Source of the DNA: a virus
IMG/VR virus record: IMGVR_UViG_3300042549_005931
Coordinates: 205,134-269,133 of that record
DNA: 64,000 bases
Direction: 5' to 3' (one strand)
This document shows positions 49,517 to 64,000 of this stretch, piece after piece. How positions within the stretch are numbered: position 1 is the stretch's first letter; every line of letters starts with the position of its first letter. A model generated the notes under the pieces. The model did no database searches and was not told the DNA's origin. It saw only the letters and a list, made by a program, of their open reading frames with translations. The translations under genes were made by a program, and so were the position numbers.

Positions 49517-49865
49517 TTTAAGGAGAATTCTCTACAAGGTTGTAAAGGTGAAAAACTTACCGGGACAATATACCCCGGTAACATATTTTCAGGAACCTGT
49601 TGGTGAGGTCATCGGAACCTTCCGATAGTGTAACGGGAACCTTCCGTAAATTACTCAACCTGGTAATGTTTATCACCCGGACGACCGGTTAATAATTTCT
49701 CAAAAAAAATGTAACCTGGTAATGTTTTCGTGAAGAGAAAAAGTTTTTTCTGTTTTCATTTTTCAACCTGGTAATGTTTTTAAACAAAAGGGGACGTCTG
49801 GTTTTTTTCTTATTTAGAATGAATATAAATTTCATGGGGGTATTGTGTATTCAAGATAAAATCGT

Positions 49866-49873
49866 TATATTTG
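49866..49873 (+). promoter_or_regulatory. early promoter core TATATTTG
   Basis: Same architecture as at 49109; the next gene starts 68 bases later. Confidence 0.55.
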
Positions 49874-49940
49874 TTCACGGTTTTAAAGTAAACCTCAACA
49901 TCGGAAATGGTTCCGAGTTGTCACTCTAATGTTTAATGTT

Positions 49941-50237
49941 ATGGTCTATACCAAAGAAATTATCCAAGAGAAGTTGTCATCAGACATTCGTTGGATTGAG
50001 AGAGGTGTTCTTGTTTTGTTCGGTCGTCAAACCGAGGATGAGAAATCTTCACAAGTTACCAAGTGGGAAAATGGTCGTGGGTTCAATAGTTCAGATAGTC
50101 GTTATCTGACTTATGTTTCAAAGTACCTAATGGGTGGTCGTCATCTATCGGGTAGACATCTTGAAAAGGTGTCCTTGAAGTTACCAAAGTATTGGAAACA
50201 GATTCAAGAAGAAATTCAATTAAAGGGGGGTAGTTAA
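49941..50237 (+). CDS. conserved phage protein
   Basis: The protein has 98 residues. I prefer the start at 49941 because it sits in the AATGTTATG context; an in-frame ATG lies 12 bases upstream. VYTKEIIQEKLSSDIRWIERGVLVLFGRQTEDE, then NGRGFNSSDSRYLTYVSKYLMGGRHLSGRHLEKV and LPKYWKQIQEE are hallmark words of a widely spread uncharacterised phage family. A terminator overlaps its stop. Confidence 0.75.
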   Translation: MVYTKEIIQEKLSSDIRWIERGVLVLFGRQTEDEKSSQVTKWENGRGFNSSDSRYLTYVSKYLMGGRHLSGRHLEKVSLKLPKYWKQIQEEIQLKGGS

Positions 50238-50250
50238 CCCCTCTTTTTTT
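50224..50250 (+). terminator. terminator
   Basis: AGGGG/CCCCT around the stop codon, followed by T7. Confidence 0.6.
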
Positions 50251-50711
50251 GTGTCTGAAGTGAAAACTTTACCGGGATGATAACTTATATGGTTTAAGGA
50301 ATTATCGTGTCTTAAATCAAAGATTCATCCTGGTAAAGTTTGTCTGGTTCTCATCTGGTTTTTTTTCTGTGTGTTTGGTAATGTATCCTGGTAAACTTTT
50401 GTTTATTTTCCGGTCCGGATGTAACCTTACATCTATTGGTAATACAACCTGGTAAAGTTTATGGGACGAGAAAAAAAATATCATAATATTCTTGTTTTAT
50501 ATACCGGTTTGCCCTACCTTTGTATTGTACCAAATGAGATAATGAAATGAAATAGTCGAAACACAAACTGACAAATAAAAAATAAAAGAAGGAGATGAGG
50601 TTGTTAAAGTTTACCGGGTTGAAAAAGCTTCACCGGTCAGGAACCCTCATAACTTTACCAGGATAAATCCGTCTAAGAAGAAAACAATCACACATTAAAT
50701 TTATAAAACGT
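50238..50711 (+). repeat. ACCGGGA element cluster
   Basis: This 0.47 kb gap holds TTTACCGGGAT (50268), inverted ATCCTGGTAAAGTTT (50326), two more CCTGGTAAA sites (50392 and 50451), TACCTTTG (50515, promoter core) and TTTACCGGG plus CTTTACCAGG (50608-50655). A 23-codon frame at 50594 has a GAAGGAG site but looks like a decayed remnant. No real gene. Confidence 0.65.
50515..50522 (+). promoter_or_regulatory. early promoter core TACCTTTG
   Basis: Fits TAnnTTTG and is followed by the AATGAAATG start context, but only a tiny frame follows. Confidence 0.5.
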
Positions 50712-51023
50712 ATGTATATTACCTTAACTAATTCAAAGTCAAAAAGAAAAACTATTATCAATTGGGGACAAGTTCATTCTTGTTATGAGTTGTTGGATAG
50801 AGAAACGAGAAGTAGAGTAACTAAGATTAACTTTAGTAAAGATAGTTACATCATTGTATCGGAGAAGTTGGAGGACATCCACAAACTATTAACGAAATTA
50901 AACTTTGGTTTATCCCAAGATGTTGAGTGGGATAGTGAACCGAATTTCGATGAGGTTATCGAAGATGAGTATAACACGAACCGTAGAGGAAATTACCGGG
51001 AACGTGATTACAATAGATTTTAG
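50712..51023 (+). CDS. hypothetical protein
   Basis: The protein has 103 residues: MYITLTNSKSKRKTIINWGQVHSCYEL, then INFSKDSYIIVSEKLEDIHKLL, and an acidic/Asn-Arg-rich C-terminus containing an embedded TTACCGGGA word (50993). Unknown. Confidence 0.65.
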   Translation: MYITLTNSKSKRKTIINWGQVHSCYELLDRETRSRVTKINFSKDSYIIVSEKLEDIHKLLTKLNFGLSQDVEWDSEPNFDEVIEDEYNTNRRGNYRERDYNRF

Positions 51024-51050
51024 ATTGTCAAAAGAGTAGTGTAGATTAAA

Positions 51051-51082
51051 AACCCTCAATCTTATAGGTTGGGGGTTTTTTG
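51051..51082 (+). terminator. terminator
   Basis: AACCCTCAA...TTGGGGGTT with a T-run. Confidence 0.75.
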
Positions 51083-51237
51083 TCGCCTTTAGAAAAAAGG
51101 TGTATTACACTATGGGGGTATTGTATTACACATAAGGGTCGTATTACGTATCCCGGTAAAATAAGGTACCAGGTCCTGACGGTCATGGTCTTGAAAATAA
51201 ATTTATTATGGAGTGTTGTATATTAAGAGAATAGTGT

Positions 51238-51245
51238 TATATTTG
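51238..51245 (+). promoter_or_regulatory. early promoter core TATATTTG
   Basis: Upstream element GTTGTATATTAAGAG, then GTTATATTTG; 22 bases before the gene start. Confidence 0.65.
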
Positions 51246-51267
51246 TGAGAACAAAATGATAAATGAT

Positions 51268-51585
51268 ATGAGAACTTTTTCAAGAACTTACTACACAGAG
51301 AAACTGAACATTACGATTAGAATAAAAAGAGATGAATTATGTTCGATGGGTTGTCGATTGACAATAAAAGATAGAATGAAAAGAGATTATTGGGGTATGG
51401 ATAGAATTGTTTATTCACAATTTTACAACGATAAGAAGATGTTTACAAAATATCGGAGACAAATGATTGAAACAAAAGTACCGGGAAAGGTGGTTAATGA
51501 AATCATTGACGATATTAAGATGAACCTTAGGTTTGAAAAAGTTGTGGTGTATCAACCAATCGAAACAAAAATGTTTTGGGATTAA
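51268..51585 (+). CDS. hypothetical protein
   Basis: The protein has 105 residues from ATG 51268, chosen because of the AAATGATATG context. It is basic and beta-rich (MRTFSRTYYTEKLNITIRIKRDEL). A TACCGGGAA word lies in the coding sequence (51478). Unknown. Confidence 0.65.
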   Translation: MRTFSRTYYTEKLNITIRIKRDELCSMGCRLTIKDRMKRDYWGMDRIVYSQFYNDKKMFTKYRRQMIETKVPGKVVNEIIDDIKMNLRFEKVVVYQPIETKMFWD

Positions 51586-51655
51586 TTACCGGGATTTTAT
51601 CCCGTATGAGGTTATCCCGGTAAATTAATGAACCGGGTCCTGACCCGGTCATGGT
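51584..51655 (+). repeat. ACCGGGA element pair
   Basis: ATTACCGGGATTTTATCCCG, then TATCCCGGTAAAT and ACCGGGTCCTGACCCGGT, an extended inverted set. Confidence 0.7.
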
Positions 51656-51712
51656 TGTTATTTAGAATCATTATAAATTTCATTGGGGTATTGTATATTA
51701 AATTAAAAGAGT

Positions 51713-51720
51713 TATATTTG
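51713..51720 (+). promoter_or_regulatory. early promoter core TATATTTG
   Basis: Preceded by TTATTTAGAATCATTATAAATTTCATTGGGG and TTGTATATTAAAT, modules seen before other early genes. Confidence 0.65.
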
Positions 51721-51741
51721 TATCAATTAAATGATAATGAT

Positions 51742-52551
51742 ATGAAACTAAATGACAAATCCTTAATTAATGTATTGGACAGTAAAGGGTTCAAAGAACA
51801 CCATTTATCGTGGACACAAAAAAATGTTGAGTATTTTTTTACTCACTATGATAAGTTCATGGAAAAATATGGTGATGATAATATTTTTGAGAATTTTTCT
51901 TGTAAAGAGTATTTTTATTCACAAAAAGTTACAAGAAGATTAATTTTTTCAAAAAAGTCTTTGAGTAATTTGGATAACTACCAAGTACCAAAAGAAATAA
52001 GAGTGGAAGTATTAAGAACATTACCTAATCGAGTGGACTTGATACAATTAAATAATGATGAAGTAGTAAAGTATGTAAAAACCGATAAAATGGTTTGTGT
52101 TACTTTTAATATCGAAGATAACCATACTAATGAAATCAAAACGTTTTTCTTTTCAATCAATTTAGAAACGGGTTATGTTTCGTATGATAATTACGATTAT
52201 CAAACTAATAGAGAGATTGAGTTTAATGAAATGAAAGAAAAGTATTACAACAAGTTTATGGTTGTGGTTACTTATTTGGAATTAACCCCCGTTACTTATT
52301 CAATCATTGAGGGTCAAAGAAGTTACGGAACAAAGAAAGAAGATAAGGTAAAGAACGAAACAAATAAACGTTTCATTATGGTAAAAACTAATTGGAACGT
52401 GGAAACAATTAGTCTATTCGATATTCATGTTCGAGGTCATTGGAGATTACAACCTCACGGAGTAGGTCGTTCACAATACAAGTACATCTACATTCAACCT
52501 TTTGAAAAAGGTATTACAAGAAGATTATCACAAAGAGAGTTGGTTTCGTAA
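51742..52551 (+). CDS. hypothetical protein
   Basis: The protein has 269 residues from ATG 51742 (AATGATATG context; the longer frame is rejected). A mixed domain with MVCVTFNIEDNHTNEIKTFFFSINLETGYVSYDNYDYQ and IMVKTNWNVETISLFDIHVRGHWRLQPHGVGRSQYKYIYIQPFEKG. Unknown; the last part recalls uncharacterised proteins of large phages. Confidence 0.68.
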   Translation: MKLNDKSLINVLDSKGFKEHHLSWTQKNVEYFFTHYDKFMEKYGDDNIFENFSCKEYFYSQKVTRRLIFSKKSLSNLDNYQVPKEIRVEVLRTLPNRVDLIQLNNDEVVKYVKTDKMVCVTFNIEDNHTNEIKTFFFSINLETGYVSYDNYDYQTNREIEFNEMKEKYYNKFMVVVTYLELTPVTYSIIEGQRSYGTKKEDKVKNETNKRFIMVKTNWNVETISLFDIHVRGHWRLQPHGVGRSQYKYIYIQPFEKGITRRLSQRELVS

Positions 52552-52566
52552 CCAACTTTTTTTTTG
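52538..52566 (+). terminator. terminator overlapping the stop codon
   Basis: AGTTGGTT-TCGT-AACCAACT then T8; the stop codon lies within the loop. Confidence 0.88.
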
Positions 52567-52581
52567 TCCTGAGATGGAACA

Positions 52582-52625
52582 ATTTACCGGGATGTTCTAA
52601 AAGTATTACGTCCCGGTAAACTAAT
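52582..52625 (+). repeat. ACCGGGA inverted pair
   Basis: TTTACCGGGATG (52583) and GTCCCGGTAAA (52610) in inverted arrangement. Confidence 0.7.
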
Positions 52626-52706
52626 TACCTGAGACTCATCTCAAGTTGGTCAAAAAAAAATTAAATTATTTTTTCATATTGTGTTGTATATTAATTTATT
52701 ATGACT

Positions 52707-52714
52707 TATATTTG
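52707..52714 (+). promoter_or_regulatory. early promoter core TATATTTG
   Basis: Upstream TTGTATATTAATTTATTATGACT and then CTTATATTTG; AATGAAATG start context follows. Confidence 0.65.
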
Positions 52715-52736
52715 TTCACACAAAACAAATAATGAA

Positions 52737-52940
52737 ATGGAAAAAGTTAATGTAGTCCAAACAAGGTACAAGAATCTCACTAATGGTATGAGAGGTACGT
52801 TCAAATTATCCGATGGTACACAAACCAAATTCGAGGTATTCGACAATGGGGAAGTGAAACAAACGGGTACAACCGAAGCTAATCTGTCGGTAACATTCCC
52901 ACACTTAATTGAGTTAGTTCACTTTTTCACCAACCAATAA
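52737..52940 (+). CDS. small hypothetical protein
   Basis: The protein has 67 residues from ATG 52737: MEKVNVVQTRYKNLTNGMRGTFKLSDG, then LSVTFPHLIELVHFF. A small beta-rich domain. Unknown. Confidence 0.6.
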   Translation: MEKVNVVQTRYKNLTNGMRGTFKLSDGTQTKFEVFDNGEVKQTGTTEANLSVTFPHLIELVHFFTNQ

Positions 52941-53033
52941 AAATGAAAAGTTTACCGGGGTGGTTAATAGAATTCATAGAATTCCTATTACTCTTATGTG
53001 TATTTATATCTTATTCAGTTAAACTTATCTATA

Positions 53034-53222
53034 ATGGAAAAGACACAACTAATCGGTAAGAGAATCCGAATCAATCACATGGACGACATGTTACCCGTAC
53101 CTGATGGGACAGAAGGGATAATTACCGGGATTGACGACATCGGACAAATACAAGTGAAATGGGATAATGGAAGTACCTTATCCGTAATAGATGATATTGA
53201 TGACTACGAAATCTTAAACTAA
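53034..53222 (+). CDS. DUF4314-like small protein
   Basis: The protein has 62 residues: MEKTQLIGKRIRINHMDDMLPVPDGTEGIITGIDDIGQIQVKWDNGSTLSVID matches the DUF4314 style (GxRIR...DPxxPxPxGTxGxV...IxVxWDNG). It contains the TTACCGGGA word in the ITG codons. Its stop overlaps the next start (TAATG). Confidence 0.8.
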   Translation: MEKTQLIGKRIRINHMDDMLPVPDGTEGIITGIDDIGQIQVKWDNGSTLSVIDDIDDYEILN

Positions 53223-53395
53223 TGAACGAACAATTTGTAAAATACATAATGGATATGTTAGAAACTTATCCACAACATAGAAACGATATTCGAGATTTGT
53301 TCAGACTTTGTAAGGACGAAATTAGGGAGGGTGGTTCCCCACAACACGAAATGGACTTATGTCGTAATGACATTGAGGAGTTGGTGAAGGGTTAG
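53222..53395 (+). CDS. small acidic protein
   Basis: The protein has 57 residues (MNEQFVKYIMDMLETYPQHRNDIRDLFRLCKDE...), coupled to the previous stop. Helical; unknown. Confidence 0.6.
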   Translation: MNEQFVKYIMDMLETYPQHRNDIRDLFRLCKDEIREGGSPQHEMDLCRNDIEELVKG

Positions 53396-53399
53396 AAAG

Positions 53400-53455
53400 T
53401 TTACCGGGATAAAGTCTGTATTACTTGTCCCTATCGTATTACATCCTGGTAATAT
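53400..53455 (+). repeat. ACCGGGA inverted pair
   Basis: TTTACCGGGATA and ATCCTGGTAATATTT. Confidence 0.7.
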
Positions 53456-53558
53456 TTTTCCCATCTCCTCGATGAGTGGAGTAAAAAAAATATATCATAT
53501 AATACTTGTTAATATTATAATTGTTTTATAATTTTACTAAACAAAAAATGATATTATA

Positions 53559-54056
53559 ATGAAAAAAAATCAATTAAAAGGTATTTTTACTGAATTAAAT
53601 GAAACTATCACACGTAAGAGTGCATTTAATTCTTTTATTGAAACGGAGAACATTTCAACCGATGTTACTTTGGAAATGTCAAGAATTGGTCTCATTCGTA
53701 AAAATGCATATAAACAATTACAAGAATTAAAAACTGATTATATCAATCTGATTAACGACAAGAAGGTTAAAGAATTGTTTGAGAAGTTTGAGAAGTTAGA
53801 AACTGCAATTGTCCAACATAGAAGTATATTAGCGACAGAAGTTAAATTGGGTTTAATAAATCAAAAGAGAGGTAGAAGTGAAACAAGTTACGTAATTGCT
53901 CGAGCACCCTTCTATCACCCAAACAAAGTGAAATCAGAAATTTCTGTGTATTTAGGTAAGACCGAAATTTTAGGTAATGATTTGGTAAAGTTATCCAATG
54001 ACAATGAGTTTATGAAGAGAGCTGAATTAGAATTGGTTTCATCAATGTTGCGTTAA
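53559..54056 (+). CDS. hypothetical helical protein
   Basis: The protein has 165 residues, mostly helical and charged (MKKNQLKGIFTELNETITRKSAFNSF..., QLQELKTDYINLINDKKVKELFEKFEKLETAI). A final part has the sequence YVIARAPFYHPNKVKSEISVYLGKTEIL. Unknown. Poor early promoter match upstream. Confidence 0.68.
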   Translation: MKKNQLKGIFTELNETITRKSAFNSFIETENISTDVTLEMSRIGLIRKNAYKQLQELKTDYINLINDKKVKELFEKFEKLETAIVQHRSILATEVKLGLINQKRGRSETSYVIARAPFYHPNKVKSEISVYLGKTEILGNDLVKLSNDNEFMKRAELELVSSMLR

Positions 54057-54072
54057 AGATATTGACAATAAA

Positions 54073-54120
54073 ACTTTACCGGGACAACGTCCCAATATAG
54101 TTACATCCTGGTAAAGTATT
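54073..54120 (+). repeat. ACCGGGA inverted pair
   Basis: CTTTACCGGGACAACG and ATCCTGGTAAAG. Confidence 0.7.
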
Positions 54121-54220
54121 TGGTGTCGTTACATCAGTCGGTTCTTCCTTATTTAGAATGATTATAAATTTCATTAAAGTATAAAAATATTTTAGGTTAT
54201 ATTAGTATAAGTCGTATTAA

Positions 54221-54829
54221 ATGACGACCTTTGTTAAGTCGATAATGACACAGAACCTTAAAAGTTTTAAAATGGAAACTTTAATGAATGAGAATGGTGT
54301 AATCACCAAAAATGATTTGGTCTTAATTACTAAGACACAAATGTTAGGTCTGTTTTTGGGAGTAACAAAACCCGAAATGATTAACTTGATAACGGAAACC
54401 AATGTAAAAACCAACAAAACGGGTAACCCCTATTACAAACAACTTGTGAAGAAGTCGAAGTGTAACTATTTGTTATGTTCGGATTATACTACAAGGGTAA
54501 ATAATAACCGAGTTAAAGAGGGTAAAGAAACGGATTTTGTTTCAGAAAAGTCAAGTGGTAAATTTCATATTTCCCCTTGTGTATTGATGGATGAAAAAAC
54601 ACAAACAAAACACTACCTAATGGTGGAGAGGTTTGTGGAGGTTAAACCAAAGGTTCAGTATTTTTTTAATGAAGAACCGATTGAGTTTGATATGTTCAAA
54701 CAATTCTTATCACCAATTAGTGAAAACAAATCACAAGGGTTGGATAGGAAAGTAATTGTAAATACTCCTTTGTTCGATTCGATTGTAGGATTCACTTTCA
54801 GAGGTCGTAAGTATAGTGTAATTGAGTAG
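54221..54829 (+). CDS. conserved phage protein
   Basis: The protein has 202 residues; an alternative start at 54272 (METLMNENG) is possible. TKTGNPYYKQLVKKSKCNYLLCSDYTTRVNNNRVKEGKETDFV, then FHISPCVLMDEKTQTKHYLMVERFVE is the pattern of a widely distributed phage family (NPY, VNxxRxxEG, YL). Role unknown. Confidence 0.78.
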   Translation: MTTFVKSIMTQNLKSFKMETLMNENGVITKNDLVLITKTQMLGLFLGVTKPEMINLITETNVKTNKTGNPYYKQLVKKSKCNYLLCSDYTTRVNNNRVKEGKETDFVSEKSSGKFHISPCVLMDEKTQTKHYLMVERFVEVKPKVQYFFNEEPIEFDMFKQFLSPISENKSQGLDRKVIVNTPLFDSIVGFTFRGRKYSVIE

Positions 54830-54860
54830 TTCGTTTTTTTCATAGTTTGGTGGTTAAAAG

Positions 54861-54888
54861 GGTAGGACAATGTTCTACCTTTTTTTTT
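54861..54888 (+). terminator. terminator
   Basis: GGTAGGA/TTCTACC with T9; the same hairpin recurs at 56178 and 57258. Confidence 0.85.
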
Positions 54889-54910
54889 GTCTGATGTTCT
54901 GAGATGGTAA

Positions 54911-54995
54911 AAGTTTACCGGGATAAGTTAAGTATTACACGGGGGACGAAGAAGACTGGAAAACTTTACCAGGATGGATTTGTCCCGGTAAATTT
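54911..54995 (+). repeat. ACCGGGA element cluster
   Basis: AAGTTTACCGGGATAAG, later AACTTTACCAGGATGG and TTGTCCCGGTAAA. Confidence 0.7.
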
Positions 54996-55111
54996 CCTAC
55001 CTGTCGTTACTGTGTCAGGATTTGTCAAAAAAAATTAAATCTTTTTTGGTATAAGTGTTGGAATTGTAATACCTATTTTGTAATTTAGATATGTCAAATA
55101 AAAACAATGAT

Positions 55112-55450
55112 ATGAATACGAAAACCGTTTACAATGTAATGAGAGGAATTGAACCTTTCACACAAAGAGAATTTGATGTTCACCAAACATTAAAAGTTCT
55201 AACCCACAACAAACTTATTTGGATAACGTGGGGAGTCAATCTTCGAAGTATCTGTGGACTTGAACGTAAGTGTCTTGTCTTCAAACCCAACGGACAATAT
55301 TTTAAAGACTTTGTCTGTGTAACTCTTGGATGGGATGATGTTTACCAGGTTCATTTTATGAACGACAAGTACAAAGTCGTTAAGTCAATTGAAGGTGTGT
55401 ACTTTGATATGTTGGTGGATGTGATTGACGGATACATTGAAACTCGATAA
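55112..55450 (+). CDS. hypothetical protein
   Basis: The protein has 112 residues from ATG 55112 (AATGATATG context). MNTKTVYNVMRGIEPFTQREFDVHQTLKVL, then WGVNLRSICGLERKCLVF and TLGWDDVYQVHFMNDKY. Similar to small conserved phage proteins; function unknown. Confidence 0.68.
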   Translation: MNTKTVYNVMRGIEPFTQREFDVHQTLKVLTHNKLIWITWGVNLRSICGLERKCLVFKPNGQYFKDFVCVTLGWDDVYQVHFMNDKYKVVKSIEGVYFDMLVDVIDGYIETR

Positions 55451-55515
55451 TTTACCGGGAGGAGAAATCCTCCCGTTAACAAGAGCTACGGTACCAAACT
55501 TTACCGGGATAAAAA
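55450..55515 (+). repeat. ACCGGGA element cluster
   Basis: ATTTACCGGGAGGAGAAATCCTCCCG and CAAACTTTACCGGGAT. Confidence 0.65.
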
Positions 55516-55543
55516 TAAGTTTTGTAAAATGAAATTAATGTTA

Positions 55544-55551
55544 TATCTTTG
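55544..55551 (+). promoter_or_regulatory. early promoter core TATCTTTG
   Basis: Fits TAnnTTTG; the gene starts 20 bases later. Confidence 0.6.
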
Positions 55552-55571
55552 TAACCCAAACAAATGACACA

Positions 55572-56153
55572 ATGAATATTAGAGAAGAAAGAATTGACAA
55601 TTACATTTTGAGATTATTTTATGATGAGAGTCCGACGAATCCTCGAGAGGACTACAATCTTACCAGGATGGTGTGTTTCCACAAGAGATACGACTTGGGG
55701 GATAGTCACGACTACAAACACGATGACTACGATAGTTGGGATGAGATGGAGAAGAACATTACCAGGATGGAGAACCCTATTGTTATCAAACCCTTGTATA
55801 TGTACGAACATGGTGGAGTTACTATTAAGACAAGTCCGTTTGGTGATAGATGGGATAGTGGTCAAATTGGTTTTGTCTTTATCCGTAAGGATGATGTACG
55901 GAATGAATTCTCAATCAAGAGATGTGGTCAGAACATGGTGGAGAGATGTGATGTATTACTTGAAGGGGAGGTTGACGTGTATGACAAGTACCTACAAGGA
56001 CAAGTATATGGGTATGAGATAGGTAAAATAAATGAAGATGGTCAGGAAGAAGGTTTAGAAAGATGTGGAGATTATCTTGATGAAGACCAATGTGTTCACG
56101 ATGGAATGGTATCATTGAATTGGTTTAAAGAAAATGAGAAAGTATTGGTTTAG
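55572..56153 (+). CDS. conserved phage protein
   Basis: The protein has 193 residues. MYEHGGVTIKTSPFGDRWDSGQIGFVFIRKDDV (about 76-108) matches the pattern found in many phages (xHxGxxIxTxPFxxxWDSGQxGF). The acidic start holds two TTACCAGGATGG words (55660 and 55759) in frame. Unknown function. Confidence 0.78.
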   Translation: MNIREERIDNYILRLFYDESPTNPREDYNLTRMVCFHKRYDLGDSHDYKHDDYDSWDEMEKNITRMENPIVIKPLYMYEHGGVTIKTSPFGDRWDSGQIGFVFIRKDDVRNEFSIKRCGQNMVERCDVLLEGEVDVYDKYLQGQVYGYEIGKINEDGQEEGLERCGDYLDEDQCVHDGMVSLNWFKENEKVLV

Positions 56154-56177
56154 GTTTTCCTTATTATTGTTTAAAAG

Positions 56178-56204
56178 GGTAGGACGATGTTCTACCTTTT
56201 TTTT
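56178..56204 (+). terminator. terminator
   Basis: GGTAGGA/TTCTACC hairpin and T9. Confidence 0.85.
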
Positions 56205-56245
56205 TGTATTACACTTGAGGAGTCTGAAGTCAGGACCTGAACCAA

Positions 56246-57013: not shown

Positions 57014-57014
57014 A

Positions 57015-57230: not shown

Positions 57231-57257
57231 TGGTTTTTTTGTTTGTGGTTATAAAAG

Positions 57258-57284
57258 GGTGGGACAATGTTCCACCTTTTTTTA
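57258..57284 (+). terminator. terminator
   Basis: GGTGGGA/TTCCACC with T7. Confidence 0.85.
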
Positions 57285-57316
57285 TGGACTGAAGTCAGGA
57301 ATCTTCTGAGATGGAA

Positions 57317-57415
57317 AAGTTTACCGGGATGGTGGAGTGTATTACGTCCTGGTAATGTTTGTCTGGCGCAGCTCTGGTCCATCAGGTTATTTATCCCGGT
57401 AAACTTATGAGTCAC
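57317..57415 (+). repeat. ACCGGGA element cluster
   Basis: Within the 0.3 kb gap 57231-57540: AAAGTTTACCGGGATGG, GTCCTGGTAATGTTT, and TTATCCCGGTAAACTT. No gene is seen; no clear TAnnTTTG core precedes the next gene. Confidence 0.7.
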
Positions 57416-57540
57416 AGAAAAATTCTTGGATGTTCCAAAAAAAATAATTGTTTTTTTTTCATATAACATTTGTAATTGTAATATTAATTGACTAATTTAG
57501 TGTTGTAGATAATGGTATCTACATTAACCCCTTTAATGTT

Positions 57541-57876
57541 ATGAGTACAATGGTAGTAAATCAAGAAGTCGAGTTTTCAATGGATGATATTGATAACGAG
57601 GTGTATTTTGAAATCACGGGTAAAATGGTTTTCAACGAGATTTTGGTTCAAGAAATTTTTGATGTGATTGTGGAATCGGATTGGTTCGTTCAAGGTAACA
57701 AGACCGAAGGTCTATTGTCAATCGGTCAGAGATTGAAAAATGGTATCGAGGTTAATCTCGATTGGAAGTCAATCACAATGGGTGAGGATTGGGATTCGGA
57801 TGAAACGGAAGAACACGAAAAGGATTTTATCCTATCGTGGGATGAGGATAATAAGATTGTCCTTACACCAAGGTAA
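57541..57876 (+). CDS. acidic hypothetical protein
   Basis: The protein has 111 residues: MSTMVVNQEVEFSMDDIDNEVYFEITGKMV, then EILVQEIFDVIVESDWFVQGN, GEDWDSDETEEHEKDFILSWDEDN. Acidic; unknown. Confidence 0.65.
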   Translation: MSTMVVNQEVEFSMDDIDNEVYFEITGKMVFNEILVQEIFDVIVESDWFVQGNKTEGLLSIGQRLKNGIEVNLDWKSITMGEDWDSDETEEHEKDFILSWDEDNKIVLTPR

Positions 57877-57882
57877 TACGAA

Positions 57883-57909
57883 GGGAGAACGAAAGTTCTC
57901 CTTTTTTTT
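57883..57909 (+). terminator. terminator
   Basis: GGAGAAC-GAAA-GTTCTCC and T8. Confidence 0.9.
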
Positions 57910-57924
57910 GTCCCTGATGGTAAA

Positions 57925-57952
57925 AGTTTACCGGGATACCCTGGTAAAGTTT
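57925..57952 (+). repeat. ACCGGGA inverted pair, tight spacing
   Basis: AAAGTTTACCGGGATA directly abuts CCCTGGTAAAGTTTT. Confidence 0.7.
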
Positions 57953-58032
57953 TCTACCCGTCACTGTCGACAGGTGATAAAAATTAATTAATTTTTTTTG
58001 TTACAAGGTGTTGTTTATATCGAAAATTAAAC

Positions 58033-58040
58033 TATCTTTG
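58033..58040 (+). promoter_or_regulatory. early promoter core TATCTTTG
   Basis: 40 bases before the DUF932 gene start. Confidence 0.65.
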
Positions 58041-58079
58041 TGTGTGGATAATGGTGTCCACAATAATCCAATAAACAAA

Positions 58080-58988
58080 ATGGAAACACAACTCGTTTTA
58101 AATGACCGTATTACACAATTATTAGACCAAACCAACCTGAATTGGAAGGTGAAAGAATCACCTATCTATACTAAGGTAGATGACAATGAGATTTTAGTAT
58201 CAGATAAAAAAGTATTACTTCGTGAAGACACACACGAGATTTTAGGTTTACACTCTGATGGATATGTACCGTTCCAAAATTATGAGATGTTAGAATTACT
58301 TGATAAGGTTTCTCAACAAACGGGTTTACCAATTCATAGAGGTGGTTTGTTTGGTAACGGTAAGAAGGTGTATATCCAACTTCAATCACACGAGTTCAGA
58401 ATTCAGAATGTTGGTGGAGTTTGGGACACTATCTCAGGATATGTTACCGGGATAAACTCATTCGATGGTTCCACTTCATTATCATTTGGTCCTAGTACCA
58501 AAACAATCTCATGTCAAAATACTTTCTTTGGAGCTTATAAGGAAATGGGTACAAAGATTCGTCACACAAAAAACATGGGGGTAAAGATTGACGAGGTGTG
58601 TAGACGAATTGAAGGTGTGTTGGTAGAGGAGAGAAACAACTTCGAAAATATCAAGAAGATGTCTGAAAGTCCTTTTGAGATGAACACATTAGATTCTGTA
58701 ATACGAACTATGTTTGACCTTGACCGTAATGTGGATTTAAAAGATACTGATAAATTATCGGGGGTAACTCGTAATAAATTATCTCGATTCTATATCGACC
58801 TTAACGGTGAACTTCGTGAGAAGGGTAACAATGTTTGGGGATTGATGTCGGGTGTAACAAAATATACTACTCACTCTGTGATTAAGGGTGATAACTCCGA
58901 GAAAAAGATGTTTGGTAGTACGGGTAATCGTGAGAGAAAGATTTTCTCCGACCTTGTAAACTATACCAACCACTTGGAACTCGTTTAA
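58080..58988 (+). CDS. DUF932 protein
   Basis: The protein has 302 residues from ATG 58080. KKVLLREDTHEILGLHSDGYVPFQNYEMLELLDKVSQQTG, GGLFGNGKKVYIQLQ, YVTGINSFDGSTSLSFGPSTKTISCQNTFFGAYKEMGTKIRHTKNM match the DUF932 family (phage/plasmid-like). Role unknown, probably DNA-related. Contains a TTACCGGGATAAAC word in frame (58444). Followed by a structured RNA stretch. Confidence 0.85.
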   Translation: METQLVLNDRITQLLDQTNLNWKVKESPIYTKVDDNEILVSDKKVLLREDTHEILGLHSDGYVPFQNYEMLELLDKVSQQTGLPIHRGGLFGNGKKVYIQLQSHEFRIQNVGGVWDTISGYVTGINSFDGSTSLSFGPSTKTISCQNTFFGAYKEMGTKIRHTKNMGVKIDEVCRRIEGVLVEERNNFENIKKMSESPFEMNTLDSVIRTMFDLDRNVDLKDTDKLSGVTRNKLSRFYIDLNGELREKGNNVWGLMSGVTKYTTHSVIKGDNSEKKMFGSTGNRERKIFSDLVNYTNHLELV

Positions 58989-58992
58989 GATT

Positions 58993-59158
58993 TGTTGTCG
59001 ATAGGTGAAAACCTAAATTAACTCACCGATGTCTTGGTGAGAGAAGAATAAGGATAAGTATTACAGGGTGTCCCTACCGACAATGTTGGACTTAAAATAT
59101 TCACCCCGTATTACCGAGTGTGGGAGGTTTTGTAAAATCATTAACCCACATCCTTATT
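58993..59158 (+). ncRNA. structured RNA candidate downstream of DUF932
   Basis: TAGGT-GAAA-ACCTA (59002-59015), CTCACC/GGTGAG (59022-59041), a 9-bp closing helix AATAAGGAT/ATCCTTATT (59047-59055 with 59150-59158), GGGTG/CACCC (59066-59070 with 59102-59106) and TGTGGG/CCCACA (59119-59124 with 59145-59150); TTGTCG/CGACAA can form a crossing pair. No coding frame fills the 0.43 kb gap 58989-59415. It ends with a terminator. A small RNA or a mRNA-stabilising 3' structure. Confidence 0.55.
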
Positions 59159-59168
59159 AAAGACACTA

Positions 59169-59198
59169 AAACCCTCTACCCAACGGAGGGTTTTTTTA
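59169..59198 (+). terminator. terminator
   Basis: AAACCCTC/GAGGGTTT and T7, after the structured RNA. Confidence 0.88.
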
Positions 59199-59234
59199 TT
59201 GCCCTCAGGAACCTGAAGACAGGACCTGGGTGAA

Positions 59235-59325
59235 AAGTTTACCGGGATATCCTGGTAATGTTTCCACCATGCGCTGGAGCTGCGCTGTAATCGTCCCGGT
59301 AAAGTATTGGAGCTGCGCTGTACTG
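59235..59325 (+). repeat. ACCGGGA element cluster plus direct repeat
   Basis: AAAAGTTTACCGGGATATCCTGGTAATG and TCGTCCCGGTAAAG; TGGAGCTGCGCTGTA occurs twice (59274 and 59309). Confidence 0.7.
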
Positions 59326-59378
59326 TGTTAATTAAAAAAATTATTTAACAAAGTAGTATGATATTAACTTAATAGTGT

Positions 59379-59386
59379 TATCTTTG
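59379..59386 (+). promoter_or_regulatory. early promoter core TATCTTTG
   Basis: Upstream AGTAGTATGATATTAACTTAATAGTG, same form as at 56369. Confidence 0.65.
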
Positions 59387-59415
59387 TAAATCGTTTCACA
59401 TAAACAATAAATGAT

Positions 59416-59751
59416 ATGAAAAGTGGTAACATTGTGGATTTAAGTAACCTCGATACACGGGATTTAATCGAGGAGTTACAGAACAGGGGGTATATGACCG
59501 GTTTGTTATTTTGTAGGGAGGATGTAGACCTTCAACTTGAAAGTTTAAATGATGGGTATCGTGGTCTAAACCTTACCTTGACTGATGAGGAAAAGGACGA
59601 AATCCTTGAAGGAGACTTACCTATTGATTGGACTTGTGAAAGAATCAATGAGAGTATCTATGATGGTGTCTTTAATTTTTTCAGTGAGGAGATTAATAAG
59701 TGGGAGGAAAAAGATTTGGGTGAGAAGATGAGAAACGGATTTGGAAACTAA
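59416..59751 (+). CDS. hypothetical protein
   Basis: The protein has 111 residues starting in AAATGATATG context: MKSGNIVDLSNLDTRDLIEELQNRGYMTGLLFCREDVDLQLESL, then helical, acidic. The start recalls small phage proteins with the phrase DLIxELxxRGY. It overlaps none. Confidence 0.68.
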   Translation: MKSGNIVDLSNLDTRDLIEELQNRGYMTGLLFCREDVDLQLESLNDGYRGLNLTLTDEEKDEILEGDLPIDWTCERINESIYDGVFNFFSEEINKWEEKDLGEKMRNGFGN

Positions 59752-59767
59752 TAAATTACCAGGATAT

Positions 59768-60031
59768 ATGGAAACATTTCAATTTTACAAAGACGAAAAG
59801 ATGACGATTTGGTATCGTGGTAAGTTCGAGGTCGAAGCTAACTCGGAGGAGGAAGCTATCGAGATGGTTAAGGAACTTGAAAAGACAAATAAGTTAGATA
59901 ACTACGATGTTTATTGGGAAATTTTGGATGACACTATGGAAGGGTTAACGGTGGGAGATAATGGTGGTTATTCCACAGAAGAAATATACACAGGTAGTGG
60001 AGACATAATTTGGGCCAATGGAAAGGAATAG
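59768..60031 (+). CDS. hypothetical protein
   Basis: The protein has 87 residues from ATG 59768: METFQFYKDEKMTIWYRGKFEVEANSEEEAIEMVKELEK is the common phage phrase (xxRxxFxVxAxSxEEA). I choose this start as the longer frame begins inside the previous gene. A TTACCAGGAT word lies just upstream. Confidence 0.65.
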   Translation: METFQFYKDEKMTIWYRGKFEVEANSEEEAIEMVKELEKTNKLDNYDVYWEILDDTMEGLTVGDNGGYSTEEIYTGSGDIIWANGKE

Positions 60032-60242
60032 TGTAATCAAGAAACTCAGGGACGGTGAACCATTGGAACTTTACCGGGATGGATTGTTCATTACTCTCCA
60101 ACTAAACAAACGACATAAAAGAATTTGTTGGGAACGATGGGTATCTGTTAACAAAACCTCTTGGATGAATTGGAATTTATTCTTATCTTTACGGGACGTA
60201 ATACAAATCTATAATGATTATGAAAAAAGAAAAACTGATTAA
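60018..60242 (+). CDS. small hypothetical protein
   Basis: The protein has 74 residues, overlapping the previous gene by 14 bases and the next by up to 29. It carries an in-frame TTACCGGGATGG word (60071; residues YRDG). Basic, aromatic (WERWVSVNKTSWMNW). Unknown. Confidence 0.6.
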   Translation: MERNSVIKKLRDGEPLELYRDGLFITLQLNKRHKRICWERWVSVNKTSWMNWNLFLSLRDVIQIYNDYEKRKTD

Positions 60243-60543
60243 GAAAATCCAACAGGTGTTGGATGACTTGGACACTCGTAGTATTAATGTACATGAGTTA
60301 GACACGGAATCATCGATTAACATTGGTGATTTGGCCAACGGTGATATAACGGAATGTGTAGAAACACTTCGTTACGATGATGTATCCACCATAGTTTACC
60401 ACAACGGTAACGAGATAGAGTGGAGTGATAAAGATTACCGGGACTTACCTCTCAATACATTAGAGGAAATCCTTGAAGCTTTACAATACTATAAAATAGG
60501 TTTTGACAAAACATTAGACGTAATACGAGATGAAAACTATTAA
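60220..60543 (+). CDS. hypothetical helical protein
   Basis: The protein has 107 residues from ATG 60220 (or 60214): MKKEKLIKKIQQVLDDLDTRSINVHEL, acidic, with a second half DYRDLPLNTLEEILEALQYYKIG and an in-frame TTACCGGGAC word (60435). Unknown; overlaps both neighbours. Confidence 0.6.
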   Translation: MKKEKLIKKIQQVLDDLDTRSINVHELDTESSINIGDLANGDITECVETLRYDDVSTIVYHNGNEIEWSDKDYRDLPLNTLEEILEALQYYKIGFDKTLDVIRDENY

Positions 60544-60823
60544 AACGATTGACCAAATTATTTCAGAGAGTGTAGAAGAGCACGTACTAACTTGTATTGA
60601 CCGGGTTAATAAGGGATTTAAAGTTGTAGAGGTTGAGGTTCCATTAGAATATTCATCCAAAGTGTTTACCTTACTAAACGATGAGATTAGTTATGGTGTT
60701 AGAATGTATGGGTGGAAGTTCGGAGTTTTCTCACAGGGAGAGTTCGAAGGTAAGATGGCTCAAACTATTTTAAAAGAAAACAATAGAGTGTTTAAAAGAT
60801 ATTTTTTAAAATACACTTTATAA
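60530..60823 (+). CDS. hypothetical protein
   Basis: The protein has 97 residues: MKTIKTIDQIISESVEEHVLTCIDRVNKGFKVVEVEVPLEYSSKVFTLLNDEISYGVRMYGWKFG. Overlaps the previous gene by 14 bases. Unknown. Confidence 0.6.
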   Translation: MKTIKTIDQIISESVEEHVLTCIDRVNKGFKVVEVEVPLEYSSKVFTLLNDEISYGVRMYGWKFGVFSQGEFEGKMAQTILKENNRVFKRYFLKYTL

Positions 60824-60889
60824 TTTGTAAGATGTTACTTATATTTTGATTACAAATTATTTGTGTTCATATTTTGTGTTTGGGAAAAG

Positions 60890-60916
60890 GGTTGGCAGAA
60901 ATGTCAACCTTTTTTT
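60890..60916 (+). terminator. terminator
   Basis: GGTTGGCA-GAAA-TGTCAACC and T7. Confidence 0.88.
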
Positions 60917-60956
60917 GTGCTCGTGTATTACCTGTGCACTGTACCTGCACAGCAGT

Positions 60957-61015
60957 GAAGTTTACCGGGACAACCTGGTAATGTATTACCTGCAGCAACT
61001 GCAGAGCCTTCAGGT
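60957..61015 (+). repeat. ACCGGGA element cluster
   Basis: GAAGTTTACCGGGACAACCTGGTAATG, with CTGCAGCAACTGCAG next to it. Confidence 0.65.
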
Positions 61016-61090
61016 AAAAAAAGTTATTAAATAATGTTTGTTATATTGAAAACTATTTTGTAATTTTAATCCATCAAATAAACAAATGAT

Positions 61091-61858
61091 ATGGAATTTA
61101 AAAACTTAACACAAACAAAAAAGGATTTAGGACTTAACTATTTAGGTTCGGTTAGTAAAACCACCAAACATATTAAGTCAATTGAGTACAACGAATTGGT
61201 TTACACTATCTACTTGTCACCTGCAGACAGTAGTGGGTATGAGGTGTGTCCATTACGAAACGACGAATGTACCGACCTTTGCCTTAATGAGTCCGGTATG
61301 AACCGAATGAGTATGAATGACGAATTGATTAATAGAAGTCGTATCAAAAAAACTAAATTGTTTTTTGAGAACCGTGAATACTTTGTCAAGTGGATGGTAT
61401 ACGAAATCGAATCCACCAAACTAAAAGCTGAAAAACTTGGTATGAGTTTTAGTGTACGTATCAATAATACTTCAGACATTAATCCTTTATCATTTTATCT
61501 TGAAGTTAACGGAAAAAAATTAAATGTATTGGATTTATTCCCCGATGTACAATTTTACGATTATACAAAAGTTCCCAACCGAATGAAGTTAATGATGTTA
61601 TATCCTAATTACGATTTGACATTTTCTTATGACGGTTATAATAAAGATACTTGTCTACAGATGTTAGAAAATAATGTTAGGGTGGCCGTTGTGTTTGATA
61701 AGTTACCGGGAGAATTATGGGGGTACAAAGTTATCGATGGTGACTTGTATGACATGAGATATCGAGATGAGAAAAATGTAATTGTCGGACTGAAGTTCAA
61801 ACGAGTTCGAAAGAAACTACATAAGGATTATAAGTTCGTAATACAAAACCCACAATGA
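61091..61858 (+). CDS. conserved phage protein (DUF7227-like)
   Basis: The protein has 255 residues in AAATGATATG context. YTIYLSPADSSGYEVCPLRNDECTDLCLNESGMN, then RSRIKKTKLFF, SVRINNTSDINPLSF, LFPDVQFYDYTKVPNRM, NYDLTFSYDGYN, VAVVFDKLPGELWGYKVIDGDLYDMRYRDEKNVIVGLKFK. This is a well-conserved phage family (SPAxxSGxxVCPxxxxxCxxxCL...RxNxTSDI...FYDYTK...VIDGDxxDxRxxD). Function unknown. The KLPGEL codons carry a TTACCGGGA word (61703). Confidence 0.85.
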   Translation: MEFKNLTQTKKDLGLNYLGSVSKTTKHIKSIEYNELVYTIYLSPADSSGYEVCPLRNDECTDLCLNESGMNRMSMNDELINRSRIKKTKLFFENREYFVKWMVYEIESTKLKAEKLGMSFSVRINNTSDINPLSFYLEVNGKKLNVLDLFPDVQFYDYTKVPNRMKLMMLYPNYDLTFSYDGYNKDTCLQMLENNVRVAVVFDKLPGELWGYKVIDGDLYDMRYRDEKNVIVGLKFKRVRKKLHKDYKFVIQNPQ

Positions 61859-61872
61859 TGTGGGTTTTTTTA
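61847..61872 (+). terminator. terminator overlapping the stop
   Basis: AACCCACA/TGTGGGTT with the stop codon in the loop and T7. Confidence 0.88.
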
Positions 61873-61906
61873 TGCACTCAGGAATCTGAAGGCAGGACCT
61901 GGATGA

Positions 61907-61990
61907 AAAGTTTACCGGGATATCCTGGTAAAGTTCCATTTGGGAAACACAGCAGCGCAAAACCATCCCGGTAAAGTTTCCCTGGCAACA
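61907..61990 (+). repeat. ACCGGGA element cluster
   Basis: AAAAGTTTACCGGGATATCCTGGTAAAGTTCC and ACCATCCCGGTAAAGTTTCCC with CAGCAGCGC repeats on both sides. Confidence 0.7.
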
Positions 61991-62062
61991 ACAGCAGCGC
62001 TGACTTCAGAAAAAAAATTAAAATATTTTTTACCTATGTGTTGTGATTTAGTAAAAATGTAT

Positions 62063-62070
62063 TATCTTTG
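62063..62070 (+). promoter_or_regulatory. early promoter core TATCTTTG
   Basis: 38 bases before the gene start; AATGTTATG context. Confidence 0.65.
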
Positions 62071-62108
62071 TACAAGTAATAAGTCAAACAATTTAAACTT
62101 TTAATGTT

Positions 62109-62657
62109 ATGGGATTAGATATGTATCTATCGAAAAAGACCTATGTTAAACAATGGTCACACGACAAACCCGAAGAACAATTCGAGGTGTCTGTTAAACG
62201 AGGTGGTAAACCTTTCAAGAAAATCGAATCAAGTCGGGTTTCTTATGTTACGGAAGAATTGATGTATTGGAGAAAAGCCAATCAGATTCATGGATGGTTT
62301 GTACACAACACACAGGAAATTGTGGAGGAAGTCAAATACTATGTAACCAAAGAAGATTTGGATAACTTACTTGATGTTTGTAAACAAGTATTGGATGTTA
62401 TGAGTAAGTCCAAGATGAAGACAGTCCAAGTTCGTAGTGGTTGGAGTGGTGGTGAGGAAACTTATTCCGATGTTGAAACTTACGATTGTGAGGATGAGAT
62501 TAGAGAATTACTCCCACCAACAGAAGGATTCTTCTATGGTTCTTACGAGATTGATGAGTGGTATAAACAAGCCATCGAGGAAACTGTGGAGTTCTTGGAA
62601 AAAGAATTACCAAAGTCCGATGAACACGATGACTTCGAGTATTACGCGAGTTGGTAA
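62109..62657 (+). CDS. conserved phage protein MGLDMYL type
   Basis: The protein has 182 residues: MGLDMYLSKKTYVKQW, then LMYWRKANQIHGWFVHN, VRSGWSGGEETYSDVETY, FFYGSYEIDEWYKQAIEET. This family (MGLDMYLxxKxYV, WRKANxIHxWFV) is common in phages and bacteria; function unknown. Confidence 0.85.
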   Translation: MGLDMYLSKKTYVKQWSHDKPEEQFEVSVKRGGKPFKKIESSRVSYVTEELMYWRKANQIHGWFVHNTQEIVEEVKYYVTKEDLDNLLDVCKQVLDVMSKSKMKTVQVRSGWSGGEETYSDVETYDCEDEIRELLPPTEGFFYGSYEIDEWYKQAIEETVEFLEKELPKSDEHDDFEYYASW

Positions 62658-62672
62658 TATAAAAAAATAATC

Positions 62673-62704
62673 GGGATATCGTTTGGAATAATGGTATCCC
62701 TTTT
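62673..62704 (+). terminator. terminator
   Basis: GGGATATC/GGTATCCC and T4. Confidence 0.65.
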
Positions 62705-62719
62705 ATAATTTTGTAAACG

Positions 62720-62968
62720 ATGAAAGATTTATTCAATAATTCAAGACCAGTTCAGATTGAAATCGGTGAATGGTGGTTCAACGGGAGATTCATCCAAAAA
62801 CAGGTGCATCCGTTGCTTAGTCCTTATGTATCCTTTAATGATAATGAGGATGGTTATATGGTTCAAACTCACACAACCTTTAAGGAAGCAACTAAGTATT
62901 GTTTGGATAATCCTTGTAATACCCCACAACACCAACCAAAAGATTTTATAAGTTCATTTAAAAACTAA
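62720..62968 (+). CDS. hypothetical protein
   Basis: The protein has 82 residues: MKDLFNNSRPVQIEIGEWWFNGRFIQKQVHPLLSPYVSFNDNEDGYMVQTHTTFKEATKYC. Reminiscent of small conserved proteins; unknown. Confidence 0.65.
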   Translation: MKDLFNNSRPVQIEIGEWWFNGRFIQKQVHPLLSPYVSFNDNEDGYMVQTHTTFKEATKYCLDNPCNTPQHQPKDFISSFKN

Positions 62969-62974
62969 TATCAT

Positions 62975-63682
62975 ATGCCCAATTGGTGTAGTAACTATAT
63001 TACGATTTCGGGAGAGGAATCTAATATGAAACCCTTATACGATTTTTTTCGTGAAGGTGAAGAAATAGTCGAAACGTATTACAAACAATTCAGAGAATTC
63101 CGTGAGAACTTTCCTGATGAGGACGCGTTTAACTCAATAGGTATGAAAGAGGTATTCGTTATGTCTACCCTTGTACCTGAGGATGAGGAATTTGAAAAGA
63201 TTAAAGAGAGTGGTCAATATCTGTTATCACCTTACACAGAATTTTGGGGTTGTAAGTGGGACATCCATATTCACGACGGACTAATCACTGAGTGTACTCC
63301 AACAAAGATTCAATTATCACCAATAACCGCTTGGTCACCACCTGAACCATTCTGTAAAAGATTGTCAAAGAAGTATGGTGTTGATGTGGAGATTAGTTTT
63401 TTCGAGGGTGGAGCTAACTTCGCTGGTCGTAGTCGTTTTTCAAACGGAAAAGAAATCGAGAGTGTAATGTATACCTATCGTGAAGGGATGTATTACTTGG
63501 AAACTGAAATTTTTTGGGGGGAGACCTATAGTGATTTAGAATGGATGTTCTGTGAAAATCCAAATATCACATTCGACGAAGTGTTAGGACAGATGTACCC
63601 TTTCGTTAAAGATGAGAATGATATAAAAGAATTAAACGAACTCTATCATAATTTTAAAGTAGATGAAACAACAGGAGAATAA
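62975..63682 (+). CDS. DUF1281 / Api92-like protein
   Basis: The protein has 235 residues: MPNWCSNYITISGEESNMKPLYDFF, FWGCKWDIHI, ITAWSPPEPFCKRLSKKYGVDVEISFFEGGANFAGR are the marks of the DUF1281/Api92-like family, ferredoxin-like fold. Role unknown. Overlaps the next gene by 20 bases. Confidence 0.85.
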   Translation: MPNWCSNYITISGEESNMKPLYDFFREGEEIVETYYKQFREFRENFPDEDAFNSIGMKEVFVMSTLVPEDEEFEKIKESGQYLLSPYTEFWGCKWDIHIHDGLITECTPTKIQLSPITAWSPPEPFCKRLSKKYGVDVEISFFEGGANFAGRSRFSNGKEIESVMYTYREGMYYLETEIFWGETYSDLEWMFCENPNITFDEVLGQMYPFVKDENDIKELNELYHNFKVDETTGE

Positions 63683-63938
63683 ATTGAGAGTAAAGTATAG
63701 TAACTTTCAAACCAATATGAATTTCAACGAGTGGGCACAAACCTTTAAGGTGTCCACTCTTGTCCCTGAACAATTTGATAGATGGGACAGCAAGTTAGAT
63801 AAGTGTAATGAGAGTGAAAAACGAATGATGATTACTTCCATGTATGAGAACGATATCACCATCCCAATCAGTACAAGAATTTTAAGTAGTATAAAACAAT
63901 TAATAAATAAAGAAAGATGTCAAGAGAAAACAGATTAA
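63663..63938 (+). CDS. hypothetical protein
   Basis: The protein has 91 residues, helical, with NEWAQTFKVSTLVPEQFDRWDSK; overlaps both neighbours. Unknown. Confidence 0.6.
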   Translation: MKQQENKLRVKYSNFQTNMNFNEWAQTFKVSTLVPEQFDRWDSKLDKCNESEKRMMITSMYENDITIPISTRILSSIKQLINKERCQEKTD

Positions 63939-64000
63939 CAGGTGGAGTATTTACCGGGATTGTAGGTACCTCCGAAAAAATTAGTTCATACGATAAGTTT
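63917..64000 (+). CDS. partial gene at window edge
   Basis: ATG 63917 opens a frame that stays open to the end (28 codons: MSRENRLTGGVFTGIVGTSEKISSYDK). A TTACCGGGAT word is in frame (63951; FTGI). Unknown. Confidence 0.5.
   Translation, partial: MSRENRLTGGVFTGIVGTSEKISSYDKF

Follow-up and report, generated by a model that had tools for sequence, protein, structure and literature searches.

Why should a short DNA word recur over and over in one part of a large phage genome, inside genes as well as between them, and within genes on one strand only? The locus that raises this question is the right end (bases 205,134-269,133) of the 269,133-bp virus contig IMGVR_UViG_3300042549_005931, a stretch of 64,000 nucleotides that is called the window here and whose numbering is used throughout; the word is TTACCGGGA. 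At about 48.6 kb minus-strand genes yield to small plus-strand genes that continue past the contig end, and from this layout and from host-type promoters we take the region to be expressed early. With moderate confidence, we propose that the word is a double-stranded DNA site for a predicted phage protein, which would block or limit transcription of the early region in a direction-dependent manner. All results are sequence statistics on mechanically called open reading frames (ORFs).

TTACCGGGA is found 23 times on the plus and seven times on the minus strand of the window, always between 49,557 and 63,951, and these 30 copies are the only ones in the whole contig. The relaxed form TTACC[AG]GG occurs 31 times (+) and 23 times (-) after 49.0 kb and not at all in the window before that point; the remaining 254 kb of the contig hold five copies. 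For TTACCGGGA, the confinement to the region from about 49.5 kb, noticed in the original prediction, holds for the entire contig. Within genes, TTACC[AG]GG is present 11 times in sense and never in antisense orientation (0.52 and 0.40 in codon-preserving shuffles), and TTACC[AG]GGA 10 times and never (0.26 and 0.19); in neither case did any of 5000 shuffles reach the sense count. The claim that in-gene copies always lie on the plus strand therefore withstood both the shuffles and the comparison of strands. The copies are indeed read in three frames (ITG, YRD/YRE and LPG), so that a shared protein motif is not the cause. Their positions had been given correctly to within two bases, with the amendments that the copy at 51478 (GTACCGGGA) has one mismatch, that those at 55660 and 55759 are the A variant, and that one at 55342 had been omitted. 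The in-gene copies have the core of the word but lack the AAAAG that flanks intergenic ones. Together with the three frames, this argues that they were not simply pasted from the cassettes between genes.

These intergenic cassettes have a common anatomy. A stop codon is followed by an intrinsic terminator, 19-46 bp, the plus word, often GTATTAC, one or more minus words, an A-rich stretch, a promoter and the next start codon; T-runs lie 19-46 bp upstream of several intergenic words, and TAnnTTTG boxes about 90-150 bp downstream. These promoters and the cultured relatives named below suggest Bacteroidota as host phylum. Intergenic copies occur in both orientations, which are distinct subtypes: plus copies read AAAAGTTTACCGGGAT, whereas minus copies are looser and mostly read AAACTTTACCAGGAY or AAACATTACCAGG. 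The inverted pairing described in the original prediction is usual, except that three minus copies at 49.66-49.77 kb have no partner.

The sense polarity in genes could also betray a signal in RNA, in which case a phage RNA-binding protein would bind the word in early mRNA or read-through RNA, or a phage endoribonuclease would cut it there, as RegB of T4 does with early mRNA; alternatively, the word would serve antitermination. Predicted folds of the intergenic stretches are indeed better than those of shuffled sequences (z -1.4 to -4.6), and GTATKAC, the second word treated below, lies in some of the loops. But intergenic copies follow a terminator and precede the next promoter, where little RNA is expected, and some minus copies have no partner to pair with. 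The arms, spaced from zero (TTTACCGGGATATCCTGGTAAA) to about 60 bp, would give G.U, commonly G.G and in three cases A.C mismatches if folded as RNA. Since plus and minus arms are distinct subtypes that produce these mismatches, an RNA stem is disfavoured, and the spacing and subtype mismatch fit a pair of DNA sites better than a selected RNA stem. Given also that four contigs lack the second word on either strand of coding DNA outside the early region, we regard an RNA-level signal as distinctly unlikely. Assignment to an Rfam family was rejected, with no match above chance. So was a CsrA-type RNA site: we take the word to resemble the CsrA-type RUACARGGAUGU, but the words of the relatives lack GGA.

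How general is this arrangement? With the GP88 protein (61091-61855) as query, relatives at 53-66% identity were found in viral contigs. Six of them, partial metagenomic contigs designated G001-G006 (the contig of the window is G000), have early genes in common, in a largely conserved order with a few swaps; G004 and G006 also have many core genes in common with the window phage, often at 50-80%. TTACCGGGA is used by none of the six; the words differ from lineage to lineage and are present in the early region only: AATAATGTTTGGC in G001-G003, TTAGTGGGGCAA...TTGCCCCACTAA in G004, GCCAAAGAATATT in G005 and TTAATTGGCAA...TTGCCAATTAA in G006, giving five different words among seven related contigs. 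The order of terminator, word, partner, A-rich stretch and promoter recurs in G001, G004, G005 and G006, and in all relatives the word is likewise placed after the terminator and before the promoter. In G001-G003, whose word is unrelated to that of the window, TGTTTGGC is found in genes five, four and three times in sense (about 0.3 expected) and never in antisense. In-gene copies are kept among these three in 5/5 and 4/5 cases against 34% for random coding 8-mers, and intergenic copies in 7/10 and 8/10 against a baseline of 25-28%.

Outside this group, an exact-pattern search of IMG/VR for AAAAGTTTACCGGGAT returned only seven unrelated contigs of 46-50% GC; a nucleotide search of cultured phages and DUF932 as bait in viral contigs gave no match. 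The words are absent from the 150 kb examined of Flavobacterium phage immuto, a cultured T4-like phage with DUF932. At about 16260-16380 of the immuto stretch L139 (record 66.3 kb) a run of ACCCGT-type words lies within a 1-kb stretch before a cluster of small genes; it is possibly a separate array of words, without relation to those described here, in a cultured phage. In the GP88 neighbourhoods of a 371-kb and a 366-kb phage contig (L040, L035) the palindrome CCAGTACTGG is dense within and between genes. Its 9-mer reaches about 20-29 copies in 20 kb against about 0.05 expected; the palindrome has a polar companion, ACAATGTAC, and is possibly an analogous code with a symmetric word.

A second word is common to the whole lineage. 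Of the 7-mers that all early regions have in common, GTATTAC is the most strongly enriched, above the promoter box, with GTATGAC a close second; GTATTAC has 106 sense and 44 antisense copies there, compared to 9.3 expected. In coding DNA, GTAT[TG]ACA reaches 37 sense copies against 7.5 in shuffles. GTAT[TG]AC is enriched in the early region of the window and in the stretches L016-L022, of which L022, from a further relative, has this word only (21 sense copies in genes against 2.7). In coding DNA outside the early region, GTATTAC and GTATGAC are missing from both strands of G001, G002, G003 and G005 (pooled, 0 against 25 sense and 0 against 19 antisense copies expected), which points to recognition of DNA and not of RNA; no such avoidance was seen in G006.

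In relatives, both kinds of word accumulate where the early region ends. Counted in stretches of 600 bp, sense GTATKAC is densest in G001, G002, G003, G005 and G006 at, or at most 0.5 kb from, the early-region end, where the gene strand switches. For the phage-specific word, the final 1.7 kb holds six or seven near-consensus copies in each of G001-G003, 0.3 kb at the 3' end holds seven in G005, and three tandem TTGCCAATTAA lie near the early-region end of G006. As G001-G003 are close kin, these are three independent lineages. Of all clues, this clustering best points to transcription stopping, and the early region of the window phage is predicted to end in a word cluster as well.

A directional stop on DNA is thus suggested by the early confinement, the in-gene sense polarity, the placement between terminator and promoter, the inverted looser subtype, the 3' clusters in relatives and the divergence of the word within the same architecture; from these features we infer protein binding, a block of elongation and its timing. 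Intergenic copies would reinforce the terminator and insulate every cassette of promoter and gene, the cluster at the 3' end would stop early transcription from entering opposite-strand genes, and in-gene copies would let a later-made protein switch early transcription off. The recognised word would drift between phages jointly with its protein, and GTAT[TG]AC would be read by a factor common to the whole lineage. Of the options named in the original prediction for a polarised signal, the binding site for a phage protein is supported, an RNA-level role is disfavoured, and Chi-like or primase sites fit poorly.

Several observations weigh against this proposal. GTATTAC is also enriched in antisense orientation in coding DNA (22 against 4.9), so this word is not strictly polar. 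In G004-G006 the cassette is present with little or no clear in-gene use, which is therefore not universal. The words lie about 90-150 bp upstream of the promoter box without overlapping it, so that direct repression of initiation is not obvious. The avoidance of the second word is only moderately unusual among words of the same composition (GTATTAC is among 2/420 7-mers at zero copies in G002 and G005 pooled, and 14-36 such 7-mers are at zero in single contigs) and is counted as support, not proof. The 3' boundary of the early region of the window phage lies outside the contig. Profile searches of G000-G006 found no shared HTH_3 protein (only G006 has one) and ParB_N only in G000 and in none of the six relatives; the HTH_3, ParB_N, integrase and resolvase searches thus yielded no shared reader candidate, with no profile search made for an L5-type repressor. 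For a shared early protein of 202 amino acids, the AlphaFold model (pLDDT 78) had no PDB match below E 0.001.

Table 1 Copies of the word, its cassettes and GTAT[TG]AC in the window (MFE, minimum free energy)
Feature	Position	Strand	Remarks
Intergenic TTACCGGGA(+) 49557, minus partner 49574-49581	49557-49581		First plus copy of array
Three unpaired copies TTACCAGG at 49659, 49715, 49767	49659-49774	-	5' edge of early region
Cassette: TTTACCGGGAT(+) 50268; minus copies 50329, 50387, 50448	50268-50455		T-run ends 19 bp upstream; MFE z -4.3
Two intergenic copies: TTACCGGGT 50611, TTACCAGGA 50655	50611-50663	+	
In-gene copy, ORF 50712-51023	50993-51001	+	YR frame
Intergenic copy	51152-51159	-	Immediately past GTATTAC 51141
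In-gene copy GTACCGGGA, ORF 51256-51585	51478-51486	+	One mismatch
Cassette: plus 51586, minus 51616	51586-51623		
Cassette: plus 52584, GTATTAC 52603, minus 52612	52583-52619		Terminator upstream; promoter box TATATTTG at 52707
Intergenic copy TTACCGGGG	52952-52960	+	
In-gene copy, ORF 53034-53222	53122-53130	+	ITG frame
Cassette: plus 53401, GTATTAC 53418 and 53436, minus 53445	53401-53452		
Cassette: plus 54076, minus 54107	54076-54114		
Cassette: plus 54915 and 54966, GTATTAC 54932, minus 54984	54914-54991		
In-gene copy TTACCAGG, ORF 55091-55450	55342-55349	+	Missed in original prediction
Two intergenic copies, 55452 and 55501	55452-55509	+	
In-gene copy TTACCAGGA, ORF 55572-56153	55660-55668	+	
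In-gene copy TTACCAGGA, ORF 55572-56153	55759-55767	+	
Cassette: plus 56250, GTATTAC 56265, minus 56272	56249-56279		Promoter box TATATTTG 56369
In-gene copy, ORF 56656-56871	56816-56824	+	
Cassette: plus 57321, GTATTAC 57339, minus 57348 and 57395	57320-57402		
Tight palindromic cassette TTTACCGGGATACCCTGGTAAA	57927-57948		
In-gene copy, DUF932 gene (58080-58988)	58444-58452	+	
Cassette: plus 59239, minus 59251 and 59295	59238-59302		Promoter box TATCTTTG 59379
Copy TTACCAGGA between two genes	59756-59764	+	
In-gene copy, ORF 60018-60242	60071-60079	+	YRD frame
In-gene copy, ORF 60220-60543	60435-60443	+	
Tight palindromic cassette TTTACCGGGACAACCTGGTAA	60961-60981		Then GTATTAC 60983
In-gene copy, GP88 gene (61091-61858)	61703-61711	+	LPG frame
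Cassette: plus 61912, minus 61924 and 61967	61911-61974		Promoter box TATCTTTG 62063
In-gene copy, ORF from 63917	63951-63959	+	ORF cut by contig end
GTAT[TG]AC, 25 sense (8 antisense), first part: 51102 51123 51141 52242 52511 52603 53418 53436 54932 55953 55979 56206 56265	51102-63496	+	
GTAT[TG]AC, rest of 25 sense: 57034 57339 58108 58212 59058 59108 60925 60983 61747 62639 63076 63490	51102-63496	+	

Adjoining the early region, a protein with a ParB N-terminal domain is encoded at 44870-45805 on the minus strand (E 4.5e-7); it is absent from the relatives searched. In a ParB-parS system ParB would be encoded wherever the sites occur; ParB_N was found in G000 only, and ParB/parS was rejected because ParB_N is not common to the relatives. 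A MotA-like -30 box with GTATTAC as -10 was rejected as well: the spacing between word and GTATTAC is too variable, and G005 has no such relation. Elsewhere in the window, 14 tRNA genes and a tmRNA gene lie at 92-5468 and 10336-10737.

Is the array a new kind of element? The original prediction knew of no described element of this form, which was too strong: mycobacteriophage stoperators and the PeSL cassettes of T4-like phages come close, and the likeness is incomplete in that neither covers everything seen. Stoperators of cluster A mycobacteriophages are many asymmetric sites for the L5-type immunity repressor, oriented with transcription (PMC9283540, PMC6550527); the asymmetric site stops elongation, reversal of its orientation abolishes the effect (PMC9283540), and motifs differ between related phages (PMC6550527). 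They resemble the present array in number (about 20-30 copies per genome), in the short asymmetric form of the site and its orientation with transcription (PMC9283540, PMC6550527), in their location, which takes in promoter regions, short spaces between genes and some genes themselves, and in a motif that varies between related phages with the repressor. Both the multi-copy asymmetric site in one orientation (11 sense and no antisense copies in genes) and the divergence between relatives (five words, seven contigs) are found here. In contrast, stoperator phages are temperate and carry their sites genome-wide for prophage silencing, whereas the present words are restricted to the early region, have an inverted second subtype, lie in terminator-promoter cassettes and have a reader protein that is predicted only. 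No lysogeny genes were found, profile searches for Phage_integrase (PF00589) and Resolvase being negative in G000-G006, of which the relatives are partial contigs, while control genomes were positive for PF00589. As no lysogeny context was found and an L5-type repressor was not searched for, we do not class the array as a stoperator system.

PeSLs (promoter-early stem-loop cassettes), reportedly described by Comeau, Arbiol and Krisch in 2014, combine a terminator with an early promoter and separate the small early genes of T4-like phages; those of one phage resemble each other and differ from those of other phages. Comeau, Arbiol and Krisch 2014 is cited on PeSLs in PMC5931544. Judged by its gene content and by its nearest cultured relatives in terminase and capsid, the window virus is a T4-like jumbo phage: the contig encodes a Gp23 major capsid protein, a prohead protease, a gp17-like terminase, a gp32-like protein and a tail sheath, as well as a family B DNA polymerase and a sigma-70 region 2 protein, and the closest cultured relatives, all distant, include phage immuto, Rhodothermus phage RM378 and a Microcystis phage. 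Its intergenic units have an early promoter beside a stem-loop terminator among small early genes, similar within and different between phages, so that by layout the intergenic part is of PeSL structure. Unlike in PeSLs, an inverted-repeat word is added between terminator and promoter and recurs in genes and in 3' clusters, which go beyond PeSLs.

The array could be PeSL-like recombination cassettes and nothing else, that is, promoter-terminator modules homogenised within a genome by recombination, with the word as a cassette part that aids gene shuffling. This would suit a T4-like phage whose cassettes are alike within and different between genomes. The early gene order is mostly conserved, with a few swaps. 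At about 91.7-93.5 kb of G004 (L126) cassettes differ in the orientation of the loop that separates their inverted arms, which suggests recombination or inversion between the arms. However, in-gene copies that lack cassette flanks, stand in three frames, are sense-only and keep their position in G001-G003 are not producible by homogenising intergenic cassettes, and the promoterless 3' clusters would be left without explanation; we consider cassettes alone unlikely. That the words are functionally stoperator-like sites built into PeSL-like cassettes, in phages without detected lysogeny genes, has in our judgement an even chance of being right, and there is a real chance that the system lies further from the known ones.

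The inverted loops of G004 also recall integron attC-type cassette-exchange sites, imperfect inverted repeats between gene cassettes of the same direction; so do the frequency of roughly one per gene cassette, the variable loops and the systematic arm mismatch. We consider this extremely unlikely, as single copies lie in genes and neither a tyrosine nor a serine recombinase was found in the seven contigs, those of the relatives being partial; unlike for attC, no cognate PF00589 recombinase was found, and integrase or resolvase sites were rejected with it. Another repeated regulatory element, the 15-bp SPBRE of Bacillus phage SPbeta, lies in promoter regions of about ten prophage genes and is recognised by one phage master regulator, MrpR, which has a tyrosine-recombinase fold (PMC10516654). 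Unlike SPBRE, for which the accessible text describes no in-gene sense-only copies (PMC10516654), the window word has them, and no PF00589 protein was found in G000-G006.

A Chi-type recombination signal of host or phage, or a replication site (initiator, primase), would likewise be short, polar and multi-copy; since the early genes all run one way, the directions of transcription and replication are inseparable inside one phage. Yet Chi is genome-wide and serves host RecBCD/AddAB, whereas all copies here lie in one 14.5-kb region and the word differs between relatives. This early-region confinement, in a region that is internal in G004 (91-114 kb of 168 kb), the placement after terminators and the short-spaced inverted partners make such a site very unlikely.

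Tentatively, the proposal of a directional stop can be carried one step further. The two words may form a DNA code that marks the early region of a lytic phage for directional shut-off, even in coding sequence, with GTAT[TG]AC as the lineage-wide part and a self-specific word read by a co-evolved protein. If so, a lytic phage could silence its early genes in the absence of lysogeny and distinguish its early region from the one of a relative that infects the same cell. Apart from T4, T7 and a few other models, little is known of how large lytic phages shut off early genes. Were a stoperator-like system to operate in a lineage in which no lysogeny genes were detected, polar transcription stops would not be just a prophage device, and the stop model would account for the persistence of short non-coding words in genes under codon constraint. 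An architecture that is conserved while its words change offers a natural series in which the reader protein may be traced by co-variation.

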